NCBI RefSeq assembly: GCF_000758685.1
Contig: NZ_CP009286.1
Coordinates: 2,138,501 to 2,202,500, forward strand
From: Paenibacillus stellifer
Lineage (GTDB): Bacteria; Bacillota; Bacilli; Paenibacillales; Paenibacillaceae
Length of the DNA: 64,000 bases
Direction of reading: 5' to 3'
The number at the start of each line of letters is the position of its first letter. Position 1 is the first letter of the stretch. The notes under the pieces were generated by a model. It saw only the letters and a list, made by a program, of their open reading frames with translations. It had not been told where the DNA came from and ran no database searches. Position numbers and translations under genes: made by a program. Shown piece after piece: positions 2,979 through 52,627 of this stretch.

Positions 2979-3084
2979 TCGAACGCGGCTAATCTTAGGC
3001 GGTACAGCCCTTTTATAACAAAAGGGATAGGATTTGCTGGGAATATATGCTACACTACCTGTGGTTACTCAATTTCATAGTCGT

Positions 3085-3172
3085 TGACACTGGGGGCGCC
3101 GCAAGGCTGAGACGAACGTTTAAGTTCGGACCCTTCGAACCTGATCTGGTTTATACCAGCGTAGGGAAGTGA
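3085..3172 (+). promoter_or_regulatory. TPP riboswitch (THI box)
   Basis: The conserved THI-box blocks appear in order: CTGGGGGCGCC near 3090, GGCTGAGA at 3105-3112, ACCCTTCGAACCTGATCTGG at 3130-3149 and ACCAGCGTAGGGAAGTG up to 3171. It lies upstream of the thiazole operon and ends about 50 nt before a strong intrinsic terminator. Repression by premature termination when thiamine pyrophosphate binds is the expected mode. Expression platform assignment is inference. Confidence 0.97.
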
Positions 3173-3223
3173 GAGCGAATGGACGTTTATTCAGCCTTTG
3201 TGGTTCAGTTAACGCGATTTCCG

Positions 3224-23503: not shown

Positions 23504-23579
23504 GGGGCCTTAGCTCAGCTGGGAGAGCGCATCGCTGGCAGCGATGAGGTCAGGGGTTCGATCCCCCTAGGCTCCACCA
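23504..23579 (+). tRNA. tRNA-Ala (GGC)
   Basis: A 76-nt cloverleaf with acceptor GGGGCCT/AGGCTCC, anticodon loop CTGGCAG and T-arm GGTTCGATC. The CCA end is encoded. Confidence 0.97.
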
Positions 23580-23585
23580 TATTAT

Positions 23586-23658
23586 GGACTCTTAGCTCAG
23601 ATGGTAGAGCATTCGACTCTTAATCGACAGGTCCAGGGTTCGAGCCCCTGAGAGTCCA
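23586..23658 (+). tRNA. tRNA-Lys (CTT)
   Basis: A 73-nt tRNA with acceptor GGACTCT/AGAGTCC, anticodon loop CTCTTAA and T-arm GGTTCGAGC. CCA is not encoded. The first pair of the anticodon stem is a T-C mismatch, as in the other two copies here. Confidence 0.96.
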
Positions 23659-23669
23659 TTATAAGTAAA

Positions 23670-28175: not shown

Positions 28176-28251
28176 GGGGCCTTAGCTCAGCTGGGAGAGC
28201 GCATCGCTGGCAGCGATGAGGTCAGGGGTTCGATCCCCCTAGGCTCCACCA
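28176..28251 (+). tRNA. tRNA-Ala (GGC), second copy
   Basis: Identical over 76 nt to the copy at 23504, CCA encoded. Confidence 0.97.
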
Positions 28252-28257
28252 TATTAT

Positions 28258-28330
28258 GGACTCTTAGCTCAGTTGGTAGAGCATTCGACTCTTAATCGAC
28301 AGGTCCAGGGTTCGAGCCCCTGAGAGTCCA
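28258..28330 (+). tRNA. tRNA-Lys (CTT), second copy
   Basis: Same 73-nt tRNA as at 23586 except one D-loop base (CAGTTGG instead of CAGATGG). The 6-nt spacer to tRNA-Ala is also identical. Confidence 0.96.
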
Positions 28331-28339
28331 TCACAGAAG

Positions 28340-29445: not shown

Positions 29446-29594
29446 TATAGTTTGGGTAGAAAAGACGTACAATGCGAAGAGAGCGGTGCTTCAACACGAC
29501 TCCCTGAGCAATAGCCGCTTTTAAGGGCGGCGGCTTTAGGTATTACGGGCAGAAATAGACCGCATCCTTTGGCGAGGGCGGTCTATTTCTTTTT
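29446..29594 (+). ncRNA. Antisense RNA antitoxin 1 (with its promoter)
   Basis: Extended -10 TGGTATAGT (TATAGT at 29446) predicts a start near 29458. The RNA would end at a strong terminator, arms GAAATAGACCGC (29552) and GCGGTCTATTTC (29578) plus five T. It overlaps the 3' end of the toxin gene on the other strand and shares most of its first 60 nt with the antisense RNA of the locus at 32229. Boundaries are read by eye. Confidence 0.65.
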
Positions 29595-29666
29595 GAGGTA
29601 ATTCAGCAATGCAATAATGAACATGCCGAACATGAAGATCAAAGACAACGCTTGATACACCTCCAT
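29583..29666 (-). CDS. Type I toxin, holin-like small membrane peptide (27 residues)
   Basis: The peptide starts MEVYQALSL and ends ALLNYLKKK, a single hydrophobic helix with a basic tail, as in the Hol-Tox type I toxin family of Firmicutes. ATG 29666 follows GGGGGGTGAGG. An extended -10 (TGCTATACT, + strand 29728-29733 for the hexamer) predicts a transcript start near 29721. In the 5' UTR, 29693-29705 is complementary with one bulge to 29521-29534 beyond the stop. This kind of 5'-3' pairing blocks translation of fresh toxin mRNA in known type I systems. Predicted membrane toxicity is inference. Confidence 0.75.
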   Translation of the reverse strand: MEVYQALSLIFMFGMFIIALLNYLKKK

Positions 29667-29939
29667 TGGCCTCACCCCCCTCGGGGAGATTAGCCGACCG
29701 CCCTTGCAAGCCTTCGATTGCTATACCAGTATAGCATAATATGGTAAGTCTATGGGAACAAAAGTTCTCTTTAATTATAGGATTTATAGTACAAATAAGT
29801 GAAAAACGTGATCCGCCCTGGAAATTTTTCCAGGGTATCTCTAGCGAAGCTGAGGTATTAGAAGACAAGGCTGGGTGAGCGGTCGCTGTCATATCTCCTT
29901 GGTACTTATGATGGAGACAAGGCTGAAAGAGAACATATA

Positions 29940-31141: not shown

Positions 31142-31214
31142 GGACTCTTAGCTCAGCTGGTAGAGCATTCGACTCTTAATCGACAGGTCCAGGGTTCGAG
31201 CCCCTGAGAGTCCA
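31142..31214 (+). tRNA. tRNA-Lys (CTT), third copy
   Basis: Same tRNA as at 23586 and 28258 except for one D-loop base (CAGCTGG). No tRNA-Ala accompanies it. Confidence 0.96.
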
Positions 31215-47153: not shown

Positions 47154-47702
47154 TCAGGTCACACTTGATATTCCCGCCTGTTTATTCCACTTTGACAGGA
47201 TGTAGCTTTTGACTTGCTGTGCCACTTGGGACGGGGGTGTACAAGTTGTGTCAATTGTAGGCATCGGCGGATTGTATTCGGTGTCCGCATGATCGAGAAG
47301 CCACTGGGCAAATTGCTTATGCTGCAGCAGCATATCGTCCGTCCATATGGCGTTGTCTCCGCGGCTGCGAAGGCGGAAATTGCGGGTTGCATCATCACAG
47401 TGCAAGTTGATAAAGCATAGTTCACTAAAATGAGTGTAGGTATCGCATTTTTGCGCATCCCAAGGCATGAACGTTCCGCATATAATCGTGCCTCTCCCTG
47501 ACAATGCCACAGATTTAGCAAAATGAAGCAGCAGGTTGTATCTGTCCTGATATTCGAGCTTAGAACCTGTTGTGCCGAAATTATCGTCATCCGTGCTGAA
47601 CAGAACAAATTCAGGCATTTGTTCTCTTAGCTCATGCATTACGGTTGTCTTTCCTACGCCACTGGCTCCTGTGATAATAAATAATGGCAGTTTCTCTTGC
47701 AT
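47154..47702 (-). CDS. P-loop kinase-like protein
   Basis: 182 residues from ATG 47702, after AAGGAGA at 9 nt. Walker A GASGVGKTT at residues 12-20, and DDDNFG after FVLFST. A lid-like helical region follows (RLRSRGDNAIWTDDMLLQHK). Resembles small nucleoside or gluconate-type kinases, or a nucleotide-binding protein of that fold; substrate unknown. The open frame continues upstream without a site. Confidence 0.75.
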   Translation of the reverse strand: MQEKLPLFIITGASGVGKTTVMHELREQMPEFVLFSTDDDNFGTTGSKLEYQDRYNLLLHFAKSVALSGRGTIICGTFMPWDAQKCDTYTHFSELCFINLHCDDATRNFRLRSRGDNAIWTDDMLLQHKQFAQWLLDHADTEYNPPMPTIDTTCTPPSQVAQQVKSYILSKWNKQAGISSVT

Positions 47703-47948
47703 AATCCGGTTCTCCTTATAGGCTGCATAATAGGGTCCAGCCCTTGATGAAGGCCGCGCCTTGGCTGGATGCCAAATGACGGAGCCGTCAACAAGCTGCT
47801 GAAGCAGGCGTCTGGCAGACTGCAAAGGAGTGATTCCCCAAGCAATGGGAGAATCACTCTTTTGTCTTTGCAGGGTTAGCGGATGACGGAATGGGCTGTC
47901 TCTGCCATGCAAATCTGCTTCAGAGCCAGCGGTTTTCGCTTCTCCGGG

Positions 47949-49229
47949 TTATTCGATGTGCGATTGGAGGGGCAGATACACGTCCCGAAAGCGTTCGAAA
48001 TCCGCCTTGCGGCATTCCAGTTCAAGTCTGGTGCCGTTCTCCTCGTAGCTGACCGCCTGTACAAGGGCGTGTTCATTGAAGTAGGAGACTACATTTCCCC
48101 GGTCAAAAGGGATCAGAACCTCGCAGCTTACATAATCGGTAAAAATGCGGCTGCGAATCAGCGACATCAGCTCATCCAGGCCGCTTCCTTCGGCGGCTGA
48201 CATGATCACGCCGTTATCCGTGGCGAACGGATACGCGGAATCTGTGAGATCGGCCTTGTTATAGGCGTAAATCATCGGGATGTCATCAACCCCGAGCTCA
48301 CTCAGCGTCTCCCGGGTCACTTCCATCTGCTGCTCGTATTTCGGATTGGCATAATCCGCGACATGAATCAGCAGATCCGCTTCCGCGATCTCTTCAAGGG
48401 TCGAACGGAACGCCTTGACCAGATGATGGGGCAGCCGGCTGACGAAGCCGACCGTATCGGTCAGCAGGAAGGTCTTCTTGTCCGGCAGTGTTATTCTTCT
48501 GACCGATGTCTCCAGGGTGGCGAACAGCATGTTGCGCGCCAGTACATGCTTATCCGGTCCGGCACCGCTGTAATCCATAATGGCGTTGAGCAGGCTGGAC
48601 TTGCCGGCGTTCGTATACCCGACGAGGCAGACGACGGGGATTTCATTCTTCCCGCGCTGCTTGCGCTGGATTTGGCGCCGCGCCACGAGCCGTTCGAGCT
48701 CCTCTTGCAGCGAGGCGATCCGGTCCAGTGAGGCTCGGCGGTCCAGCTCGAGCTTCGTCTCGCCGGTGCCCCGGTTCTTGAGCCCGGAGCCGCCTCCCTG
48801 GCGGCCCAGCGAATCGCGCTGTCCCGCAAGCCGGGTCAGCATGTACTGCAGACGGGCAATCTCGACCTGAAGCTGTGCTTCCTTGGTCTTGGCCCGCTCG
48901 GCAAAGATATGCAGAATCAACATCGTCCGGTCCAGAACCTCGCGCCCAAGCTTGCGCTCCAGGTTGCGGATTTGGGAAGGGCTAAGCTCCCCGTCAAAGA
49001 TCACAGCCGATACGTCCAACTGGTCGGCCAGCGCCGCCAGTTCCTTCAGCTTGCCGGAGCCGATGTAATGGGCGGCGTTGGTCTTGGCGGCCTTCTGGGT
49101 AACTTCTCCCACAGTCTCAATGCCGCATGCCGCGGCGAGATTGCTCAGCTCCTCCATCGAATAAGCGAAGTCTTCGTCCTGTTGAAGCTGGACGCCGACA
49201 ATAATGGCAGTGGTGGTCATGGATTCCAT
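47949..49229 (-). CDS. hflX: Ribosome-associated GTPase HflX
   Basis: A 426-residue GTPase that splits or rescues stalled ribosomes; some family members give macrolide-lincosamide tolerance. N-terminal HflX domain with the coiled-coil region (LERKLGREVLDRTMLILHIF, RAKTKEAQLQVEIARLQYML) and the Gly-rich RQGGGSGLKNRGTGETKLE. Then the G domain: G1 GYTNAGKSSLLN, G3 DTVGF, G4 NKAD. AGGAGGAAT lies before ATG 49229. A structured leader of about 380 nt ending in a terminator directly precedes it. Confidence 0.94.
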   Translation of the reverse strand: MESMTTTAIIVGVQLQQDEDFAYSMEELSNLAAACGIETVGEVTQKAAKTNAAHYIGSGKLKELAALADQLDVSAVIFDGELSPSQIRNLERKLGREVLDRTMLILHIFAERAKTKEAQLQVEIARLQYMLTRLAGQRDSLGRQGGGSGLKNRGTGETKLELDRRASLDRIASLQEELERLVARRQIQRKQRGKNEIPVVCLVGYTNAGKSSLLNAIMDYSGAGPDKHVLARNMLFATLETSVRRITLPDKKTFLLTDTVGFVSRLPHHLVKAFRSTLEEIAEADLLIHVADYANPKYEQQMEVTRETLSELGVDDIPMIYAYNKADLTDSAYPFATDNGVIMSAAEGSGLDELMSLIRSRIFTDYVSCEVLIPFDRGNVVSYFNEHALVQAVSYEENGTRLELECRKADFERFRDVYLPLQSHIE

Positions 49230-49270
49230 ATATTTATTCCTCCTCGTGTCGTTACAGGTTAGATCACAAC

Positions 49271-49648
49271 AAAAAAAGCACAGGCATCTGCCTGTGCGGT
49301 TGCACTAGTGGTGGAGGACACGGAAGGAAAGGGTCGCATACGGTAAACCTGCTAAGCGGATGGAGTGGACGCGGCGCGTTTCTCTCATCAACTCGAACGG
49401 TCAGCCCTAAGGTTCAACATGGCCCATAGAGGGGGTCAGTCATCGAACCTCCGTAAGGGAGCGGCTTAACGCCGCGGAAACCCGAACGGGGAGCCGGTAT
49501 ATCCGTATGAATCAGGGTTACCCTGTACATGAACAGACCTATCCTGGAGTCCTCCACCCGCAGGCAGAGTAATGGCGCAGTTAAATTAGGCGCGCACATT
49601 TCGAATCCGGATAAAATCTATCACGTGTAACCCTCCATTCCTAAAGTT
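49271..49648 (-). promoter_or_regulatory. Structured hflX leader with terminator/antiterminator
   Basis: The promoter at 49655 predicts a start near 49648. A 12-codon leader ORF comes first, then about 250 nt closed by a perfect helix GGTGGAGGAC/GTCCTCCACC (+ strand 49310-49319 with 49549-49558). An intrinsic terminator (GCACAGGCA/TGCCTGTGC, + strand 49278-49297, then seven T) ends 40 nt before the hflX ATG. The sequence flanking the closing helix (+ 49558-49567) can pair with the 5' arm of the terminator (+ 49288-49299) with a 2-nt bulge, making an antiterminator. Inner pairing AGGTTC/GAACCT also exists. Not matched to any RNA family I know. Confidence 0.7.
49586..49624 (-). CDS. hflX leader peptide, 12 codons
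   Basis: GTG start at 49624 with GGAGGG 6-7 nt upstream. The peptide is MIDFIRIRNVRA. It contains Arg-X-Arg (RIR, residues 6-8), the +X+ motif at which macrolides stall ribosomes in several resistance-gene leaders. It lies at the 5' end of the structured leader. Function as an attenuation peptide is inference. Confidence 0.6.
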   Translation of the reverse strand: MIDFIRIRNVRA

Positions 49649-49654
49649 AAGTCG

Positions 49655-49683
49655 ATTCTAACACGGGAGGGATTGCTTGGCAA
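49655..49683 (-). promoter_or_regulatory. Promoter of the hflX leader
   Basis: On the - strand TTGCCA, a 17-bp spacer and TAGAAT preceded by TG (extended -10). Confidence 0.8.
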
Positions 49684-49846
49684 ATCTTTTCATCCAACTT
49701 CGCATTTAATCCGTGGGCTCTATTAATGCATATTAAACGGGTAGGAAATATGAGATATAATTCACTGACAACTGGGAAACTGGCCGATAAACTGGCGGAA
49801 GACAGCAGGAATCCGGCCGATAAAAATCAGAGGAGAGTGAACGAAG

Positions 49847-50302
49847 ATGAGCGAAATCAGAGGCGGAATCGTTGATTATTTGAATGGCACCCGGTTTGTG
49901 GTGCTGGCGACTGTGAACCAGGATGGCGCGCCGGAGGTGCGAACCCTCGGCGGGTTCGCAGTGGACGGCTACAAGGTGTATTTTTCAACGGATGAGGGAA
50001 CGGAGAAGGTGAAGCAGATCCGGAGCAATCCGGCTGTGACGCTCCTTTTTCAACATGAGAACCAGGAGCTTGCCGGCTTTGTGAATGTGTCGGTCCGTGG
50101 CGAAGCCCGGCAGGTTGACAATGCGGAGGAGCTGGCACATGCGATAGCAGCGCTCGGAAACCGGAATCCGCGGTTCAAGGAACGCGCTGACAAAGGAGAG
50201 CTTGCGAACACCGCAATCATCGGAGTAACGGCCTCCGAGATCAAGGTGCTCGATTTTGCCAAGGGTAGAGGCGCCGAAGCGGTTGAGGTGATTGCAGTAT
50301 AG
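49847..50302 (+). CDS. Pyridoxamine 5'-phosphate oxidase-like flavin protein
   Basis: A 151-residue split-barrel protein of the PNPOx family. N-terminal LATVNQDGAPEVRTLGGFAV and KVYFSTDEGTEKVKQIRSNP follow the flavin- or F420-binding pattern; the remainder is a beta barrel. Members include general stress protein 26 and heme-degrading or flavin-reducing proteins, so the reaction is open. AGAGGAGAG precedes the ATG. Monocistronic, ended by a terminator. Confidence 0.85.
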   Translation: MSEIRGGIVDYLNGTRFVVLATVNQDGAPEVRTLGGFAVDGYKVYFSTDEGTEKVKQIRSNPAVTLLFQHENQELAGFVNVSVRGEARQVDNAEELAHAIAALGNRNPRFKERADKGELANTAIIGVTASEIKVLDFAKGRGAEAVEVIAV

Positions 50303-52376: not shown

Positions 52377-52489
52377 CAAAAGCCCCAGGCTCCAAAGAGA
52401 CGACAGTCCGAAATTATTTCCTATCGCAAGACGCCTAAAGGGCAGCCGCGGGAAGCATCGGGTCTGTACAGCCTCTTGTAGCCTGGGGC
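52377..52489 (-). ncRNA. Structured RNA element upstream of the Rieske gene
   Basis: On the - strand GCCCCAGGCT (start near 52489) pairs perfectly with AGCCTGGGGC (ending 52382), followed by TTTTGC. Between them an imperfect long hairpin can form (AAGAG/CTCTT, ACAG/CTGT, CC/GG). Length about 108 nt, ending 74 nt before the Rieske start. It may be a riboswitch-type leader with terminator or a separate small RNA. I could not match it to a known class. Confidence 0.55.
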
Positions 52490-52627
52490 AATTTACGGTT
52501 GCCTGTAGAAACGCCCGTTCCGATCAACGCGCTTATACAAGAAAGACTTTTCGTGTTAGATTTATTAACATACATCAGAATTAAACTAATCATAATCAGG
52601 GGAGCTGTTTCTGTCAATATTGATTTG

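Follow-up and report, generated by a model that had tools for sequence, protein, structure and literature searches.

The hflXr-type gene and its leader

The window, that is, the whole stretch of 64,000 nucleotides of Paenibacillus stellifer DNA that was analyzed, carries an hflX gene preceded by a long structured leader. The elements of this locus are listed below; P2, P3, and P4 were mapped onto the window from the columns of A1, an alignment of 17 sequences that was not fitted to a model.

47949..49229, minus strand: hflX of the HflXr type, 426 aa (TIGR03156, E 9.8e-130; type from the tree and a longer loop)
49239..49244, minus strand: Shine-Dalgarno sequence of hflXr, read from the sequence
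49271..49297, minus strand: intrinsic terminator, GCACAGGC-AGAT-GCCTGTGC-T7
49288..49319, minus strand: 3' side of the antiterminator, made up of Y' (49319-49310) and of X' (49299-49288), the latter sharing bases with the terminator 5' arm
49515..49633, minus strand: OFF domain P1-P4, from conserved helices and covariation
49549..49567, minus strand: 5' side of the antiterminator, made up of X (49567-49558) and of Y (49558-49549)
49569-49564 with 49557-49552, minus strand: P4
49593-49587 with 49580-49575, minus strand: P3, across the uORF stop codon
49586..49624, minus strand: uORF of 12 codons, MIDFIRIRNVRA, GTG start and TAA stop
49601..49609, minus strand: Arg6-Ile7-Arg8 codons, the expected stall site, numbered as in ErmDL Arg6-Leu7-Arg8
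49626-49609 with 49544-49529, minus strand: P2
49633-49627 with 49522-49515, minus strand: P1, a helix of the OFF domain
49631..49636, minus strand: Shine-Dalgarno sequence of the uORF, GGAGGG, partly within P1
49655..49683, minus strand: promoter, -35 TTGCCA, spacer of 17 nt, extended -10 TGTTAGAAT

The promoter is of the sigma-70 type (49683-49655, minus strand), with TTGCCA at 49683-49678, an extended -10 (TGT-TAGAAT) ending at 49655 and 10 of 12 matches to the consensus; similar boxes, judged by eye, are present in relatives, and the region 49200-49850 holds 2 promoter-like sites against 0.9 in shuffles. The uORF (49624-49586) begins with GTG, so that the first letter of MIDFIRIRNVRA is a Val codon read as the initiator Met. 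The terminator (49297-49271) has 8 bp, 6 of which are G-C, followed by 7 T (one terminator in the sequence, where shuffles give 0.5), and its end lies 41 nt from the hflX ATG (49229). A closing helix of 10 bp joins 49558-49549 with 49319-49310, with 229 nt in between, and the fold of 49655-49265 has z = -4.03, none of 100 shuffles being equally stable. The first-pass annotation had described this promoter with its 17-nt spacer, the 12-codon uORF with its ribosome binding site, a perfect closing helix of 10 bp, and a terminator ahead of the hflX ATG, and all of them were found where it had placed them. At the gathering score, no Rfam family was found on the window leader nor on 10 loci of the leader family; two matches near the leader fall below that score, namely aspS (21.5 bits where gathering requires 42.5; E 0.3) and a plant miRNA.

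The source genome (one contig, 5.66 Mb) encodes two proteins above the TIGR03156 cut-off, and the window HflX is 40% identical to its own paralog and 55% to a Listeria HflXr (locus L264). The Listeria gene is presumably lmo0762/hflXr, as judged from its lplA2 neighbor and a 14-aa R-L-R uORF. The two hflX types are told apart by identity (39-43% vs at least 58%), and the other type is present in 23 of the 24 genomes examined. The leader (E up to 0.1) precedes the gene at 8/8 fetched loci of the window type and at 0/23 loci of the other type; three more second copies, outside that search, belong to genomes (G003, G009, and G015) in which the leader stands before hflX. In a tree of 53 HflX proteins, two rows of which (L013 and L040) are one locus, 23 proteins of the other type are split from the remaining 30 at 100/100, and 29 of these 30 are linked to the leader, the exception being L265, where no leader was seen. 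Moreover, in a subset of 18 proteins a loop in the N-terminal half has at least 2 extra residues in 11/11 of the window type and 0/7 of the other type, the window HflX having 2 more residues in GGGSGLKNRG than its paralog L053. A helical-domain loop (HD-loop) longer than that of canonical HflX is reported for HflXr (PMC12493154), and the loop with extra residues would correspond to it. On sequence grounds, the window hflX is an HflXr-type second copy belonging to a clade distinct from that of the housekeeping copy. HflXr as a class is the antibiotic-resistance form of HflX, marked by increased resistance to lincomycin and erythromycin.

On the same strand, 3' of hflX, a gene at 47154-47912 (-) gives weak NCBIfam matches to P-loop kinases, below the cut-offs. 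Elsewhere in the window are a TPP riboswitch at 3082-3184 (+) and a purine riboswitch at 52459-52560 (-), two tRNA-Ala(GGC)/tRNA-Lys(CTT) pairs about 4.7 kb apart at 23504-23659 and 28176-28332, a third tRNA-Lys(CTT) at 31142 and, between the latter and the second pair, an Rfam BsrG match (29481-29721 (-), 66.6 bits).

The putative OFF domain and antiterminator pairing

The earlier description of the leader left out the OFF domain P1-P4, within which the uORF lies. In A1, 98.3% of the cells are paired against 33-47% when the strands are slid, and 6 cells are changed on both sides (shuffle mean 1.5; reached by 0/500 shuffles); these cells sit on just 2 pairs, a number that 94/500 shuffles reach, and therefore the helices are conserved in A1 with little covariation. 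Among 86 distinct sequences both-side changes occur in 25/35 pairs and 179 cells (shuffle means 15.1 and 44.1; 0/500 shuffles reach the observed values), with 91.8% of the cells paired against 33-45% when slid, and among 67 further sequences they occur in 28/35 pairs and 322 cells (shuffle means 21.9 and 126.8; reached by 0/500 shuffles, slid versions being far lower); both sets are model-fitted, and their covariation figures lean upward because the fit favors structure. Conservation of the uORF and of the helices before hflX in relatives, set beforehand by the first-pass annotation as a test of its reading, was found for both, and the covariation of the helices is present in the wider, model-fitted alignments. 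When the window leader is folded unmasked, its minimum-energy structures contain P2 and P4, while base 49631 of P1 pairs with 49327 and not with its P1 partner; the P1 3' strand was not found, as searched, in the relatives L004 and L008, the latter containing N.

Two pairings could compete with this domain. X/X' would join the 5' strand and loop of P4 to the terminator 5' arm, and Y/Y', in hflX leaders, would join the P4 3' strand to the stretch just 5' of that arm. The strand adjoining the closing helix (49567-49558) is able to pair, as proposed earlier, with 49299-49288, which includes the terminator 5' arm; the closing helix, which had been thought to exclude the terminator, does not do so alone, being the inner half of the antiterminator, with the exclusive pairing (X/X') adjoining it.

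The X/X' pairing is matched by no more than 5 of 100 shuffles in 50 of 78 distinct leaders (HflX 37/53, Mph 9/20, Erm 1/1, Est 3/4) and is not better than shuffles in the other 28. Own partners pair better than foreign ones on average (HflX -15.6 vs -14.3; Mph -14.9 vs -13.9), a gain that is small because most arms are alike. Among leaders with altered arms, the own partner is preferred in L040, L058, L072, and L089 (a foreign one is as good in 2/77 each), L082 (3), L091 (4), L057 (5), and L059 (6), a group that includes near-copies; no such preference appears in L111 (33 of 77), L105 (35), L110 (56), L078 (67), and L113 (69), and L077 and L079 fail as well. The Y/Y' helix is significant at p 0.05 in 23/43 HflX leaders and in 0/6 Mph leaders. 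The terminator finder missed 4 of 91 leaders (L032, L109, the second of L066, and L074) and took a hairpin far from the gene, which may not be a working terminator, in the esterase leaders L057-L059 and L094 and in L063, L064, L069, L076, L078, L080, and L062. A terminator core CACAGGC..GCCTGTG recurs among hflX, mph, and erm leaders, and the erm leader of Bacillus paralicheniformis has it too.

When the uORF is masked in transcripts cut after the terminator 5' arm, the predicted X/X' pairing rises from 0.29 to 0.69 over the 78 leaders, with an increase of more than 0.1 in 53 and a decrease in none. In the 66 leaders where a control mask of equal length fits, the values are 0.35 unmasked, 0.73 with the uORF masked, and 0.22 with the mask elsewhere, the control raising the pairing in 1 leader and lowering it in 22. 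For the window leader the prediction is 0.04 free, 0.53 with the uORF masked, and 0.04 with the mask elsewhere, and when the cut transcript is folded to minimum energy with the mask in place, P4 gives way to pairing of 49566 with 49289 and 49553 with 49315. At full length the predicted equilibrium of the window leader favors the terminator (0.95) even with the uORF masked; antitermination would therefore have to be decided before the terminator 3' arm is made.

Spread, downstream genes, and putative sensor peptides

By blastn, 20 of 60 genomes have the leader, a count that includes the source genome and also G004, which matches around the terminator only. Two covariance models were used, both with rough E-values due to a short calibration: R1, from the uORF domain of 17 hflX leaders and with no erm, esterase, or mph leader in its training set, and R2, from 92 order-set matches, the window leader among them. 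R1 matched 160/296 genomes of the order, in 26/48 genera, and at least 24 of the 160 have two matches. The order set comprises 92 matches in 91 loci, namely the best 30 among the matches listed, 60 picked so as to favor weak and second matches, and the window locus; the downstream genes are hflX in 63, mph in 20, a macrolide esterase in 5, erm in 3, and 1 unclassed, and this last (L112) was recognized as Mph in a looser search only. All 92 inspected matches precede HflX, Mph, Est, or Erm genes. NCBIfam places 3/3 Erm examples over the curated cut-off; for esterase NF052610, L094 is over the cut-off and L059 just under it, and 4/4 Mph examples have Mph as best match, yet below allele-level cut-offs. 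The best relatives of the L077 product are solved macrolide phosphotransferases, and the esterase reading of L074 and L057 is in pieces. At L066:201-2782 two leaders stand in series, in the order leader-hflX-leader-erm.

R2 matched 109/398 genomes drawn from the class (43/145 genera), 33 of the 109 belonging by hand count to the window's own family, and 15/398 genomes drawn from the phylum. The class set examined consists of 67 matches, 7 class-level loci and 60 picked, of which 66 are outside the order and one (L198) is in the window's family. Genes were assigned here by best similarity to one example each, with only the Msr, Erm, HflX, SDR subfamily, one esterase, and EmrB subfamily (LmrB) examples passing curated cut-offs, as Mph 15, Erm 12, HflX 8, esterase 7, Mef-like 7, LmrB-like 5, Msr-type ABC-F 5, TlrB-like 3, SDR 2, Tet-like MFS 1, and none 2; drug-resistance families thus account for 63/67, the rest being the 2 SDR genes and 2 unclassed (L185 and L186). 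Outside the class there are 9 matches in 8 genomes (E up to 7e-4), before genes read by eye as SDR, Mef-like (2), ABC-F (2), Mph, Erm (2), and HflX. With E up to 1, R2 gave no match before the Lysinibacillus plasmid hflX (L265), at msr(G) behind mef(F) (L266 and L268), or at the other-hflX locus L053. The macrolide phosphotransferase family acts on macrolides, and the genes downstream of the leader, being nearly all of the macrolide-resistance type, point to macrolides as the sensed class.

On a Priestia megaterium plasmid (L267:219-2964), a leader of 56.2 bits is followed by an RNA methyltransferase gene and then by msr(I) and an MFS gene. An SDR gene follows the leader in three genomes, at L160:615-1523 (+), L174:415-1368 (+), and L300:1876-2751 (+), assigned by NF006114 for L160 and by similarity or eye for L174 and L300; the uORFs before these genes have 6 codons (MIDFSR, MIDSSR, and MLIFSR). 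The leader-linked SDR is a candidate macrolide-modifying enzyme.

A Shine-Dalgarno sequence followed by a uORF with R/K-X-R/K is present in 130 of 159 matches, and the motif begins at codon 5 or 6 in 113. By the criteria used R-X-R is absent in 29/159, namely 12/12 esterase leaders and 17 before other genes; in the L040 and L042 leaders R-V-W stands in its place. Seven class-set esterase leaders (L144, L153, L155, L157, L167, L176, and L195) have a MAN-stop uORF at the usual start position, although a longer frame could begin at a GTG lying two bases upstream; among the order-set esterase leaders, L057-L059 and L094 encode longer peptides without R-X-R and L074 has no start there. The Mph leaders L067 and L198 have the uORFs MVD and MLI. 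These three-codon uORFs (MVD, MLI, and MAN), set on the same scaffold, recall the vmlR uORF MIN, a known three-residue sensor for lincomycin (PMC9226507), and such tripeptide sensors would suit drugs that stop synthesis after few residues.

The proposed mechanism and its relation to known leaders

The attenuator interpretation of the first-pass annotation is supported, and the window leader very probably controls its hflXr-type gene by ribosome-mediated transcription attenuation in response to macrolide-type antibiotics. In the absence of drug, the uORF would be translated and released, and its coding strand would pair with the stretch 3' of P4 (P1 and P2); with P1/P2 formed P4 would stay closed and the terminator would form, giving a short RNA of about 375 nt, a length that assumes the start point suggested by the promoter. 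In the presence of drug, a ribosome would stall on the uORF, most likely with the Ile7 codon in the P site and the Arg8 codon in the A site, and cover one P1/P2 strand, leaving the domain open; Y, on the P4 3' strand, could then pair with Y' ahead of the terminator, and X, on the P4 5' strand, with X' in the terminator 5' arm, and with this antiterminator formed polymerase would continue into hflXr, whose product would split or rescue stalled ribosomes. This would make the window hflX a drug-inducible resistance gene rather than a housekeeping one and would give a defined two-state RNA.

A compatible variant, less likely than not, is that the attenuator responds not to macrolides of the erythromycin type but to some other ribosome drug, be it lincosamides or tylosin and further 16-membered macrolides. 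The Listeria rli80 leader is induced by lincomycin as well as by erythromycin via ribosome stalling (PMC6310831), and the tlrB peptide MIIQFIRYR, with an FIR-x-R end resembling MIDFIRIR, answers tylosin and not erythromycin (PMC6851288); on the other hand, family members drive macrolide phosphotransferase-family genes, and R6-I7-R8 of the window peptide has the same positions as the motif Arg6-Leu7-Arg8 of ErmDL, which stalls the ribosome with Leu7 in the P site (PMC8298421). Because Arg-X-Arg peptides do not all respond to the same drugs, the one sensed by the window leader cannot be narrowed down to erythromycin or to lincomycin.

As for the family, the balance tips slightly towards one homologous attenuator RNA, made of P1-P4 and an antiterminator between a P4 strand and the terminator arm, with an exchangeable sensor peptide tuned to the gene, taken up across Bacilli and beyond by at least eight resistance families (hflXr, mph, erm, macrolide esterase, msr, mef, tlrB-like, and lmrB-like) and by an SDR gene with no known action on antibiotics. 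The opposite view, that the erm, mef, msr, mph, esterase, and hflXr leaders are convergent, sharing a similar peptide and any hairpins, is rather unlikely; it draws on the 'no discernible homology' stated by Chancey et al. 2015 for the 5' region of mef(E) and that of erm(K), whose leader peptides are alike (PMC4335068), and on the preference of model-fitted alignments for structure. A search with the ErmD/ErmK leader-peptide DNA pattern alone gave 64 named loci, including Bacillus paralicheniformis and B. sonorensis, and R2 matches all of them except L210; the genes downstream of these 63 are ABC-F in 25, Erm in 12, Mef in 12, and TlrB-like in 11, with 3 too near the locus end. A sequence-only model gave 62 matches, mostly over positions 36-122 and so extending beyond much of the peptide pattern, and R2 scored higher in 62/62, by 16.5 bits on average, although it also covers more positions. 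These results, together with the recurrence of the terminator core in hflX, mph, and erm leaders, argue against convergence. If the leaders are indeed one RNA, ErmK, rli80, and mef/msr leaders, studied singly, would all be versions of a single module; a resistance gene whose function is unknown could therefore be found through its leader, a gene-blind search bringing up new ones, SDR first, and sequence would show how the sensor peptide is matched to the enzyme.

Amino-acid attenuation, in which slow translation of Arg codons under arginine shortage relieves termination, would fit the 3 Arg among 12 uORF codons and a geometry that would suit a trp-type attenuator; it is very improbable and was rejected on account of the resistance genes downstream (92/92 in the order set, 63/67 in the class set) and of the 7 class-set esterase leaders that keep the scaffold with a MAN-stop uORF devoid of Arg. 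Still less credible is a ligand-binding riboswitch working without translation, suggested by the strong conserved structure and a domain closed by P1 and rejected given the coding-frame signal (synonymous one-base differences of 0.42 in the uORF frame vs 0.23 and 0.10 in the other frames among 43 distinct 12-codon uORFs of the order set, counted over pairs of sequences that are not independent), the lack of an Rfam match at gathering on the window leader or the 10 family loci, and the loss of lincomycin induction of rli80 upon ErmC expression (PMC6310831).

Among the known systems close to the macrolide-type attenuator proposed here is rli80, which precedes hflXr (lmo0762) in Listeria monocytogenes (Duval 2018, PMC6310831) and likewise has an R-X-R uORF lying within an anti-antiterminator region, alternative terminator and antiterminator, and an HflXr gene. 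The Listeria leader L264 encodes MRYIRLRFPKNLCN, which fits the 14-aa R-L-R ORF of rli80 (PMC6310831), and R2 scores rli80 in two records, with 39.2 and 35.2 bits, against 100.4 bits for the window. The window differs in its uORF of 12 codons with RIR and in the 229 nt separating the closing-helix strands, and the P1-P4 scaffold is not described for rli80 in the accessible sections of PMC6310831; by sequence comparison the window leader is related to the rli80 attenuator.

The uORFC-6-1 element (Brewer 2021, PMC8632094) has an Arg-Leu-Arg uORF before hflX in Bacillales, a covarying structure, and a proposed attenuation; it counts 51 representatives, primarily at hflX, and the accessible sections describe neither an antiterminator with the terminator arm nor other resistance genes. 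The window element also precedes hflX, with R-I-R in place of R-L-R; the uORFC-6-1 structure is described as wholly 3' of the uORF start, as P3 and P4 are in the window, while the window P1 5' strand and first P2 pairs precede the GTG. The window element is likely uORFC-6-1, as compared by description only.

In Bacillus licheniformis, the erm(K)/erm(D) leader (ErmDL; PMC8298421, PMC4335068) shares R-X-R at codons 6-8 and, for erm(K), transcription attenuation; its peptide is MTHSMRLRFPTLNQ and it drives a 23S rRNA methyltransferase. Leaders with the ErmDL peptide are matched by R2, and that of Bacillus paralicheniformis has the same terminator core. The mef/msr (Mef(E)L, MTASMRLR; PMC4335068), tlrB (PMC6851288), and vmlR (PMC9226507) leaders have in common ribosome-mediated attenuation and a short uORF; for mef(E) of pneumococcus and for tlrB and vmlR of B. 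subtilis the comparison is one of published descriptions. Before tlrB homologs, 180 R/K-X-R/K leader peptides have been predicted (PMC6851288).

In the accessible portions of the open-access literature no report was found that joins these leaders into one RNA family or places such a leader before mph or esterase genes. Judging from the same sources, hflXr attenuation in Listeria, uORFC-6-1 before hflX, and the similarity of erm(K), mef, and msr peptides are already known, and the new part may be the family-wide scaffold with exchangeable sensors, three-residue ones included.
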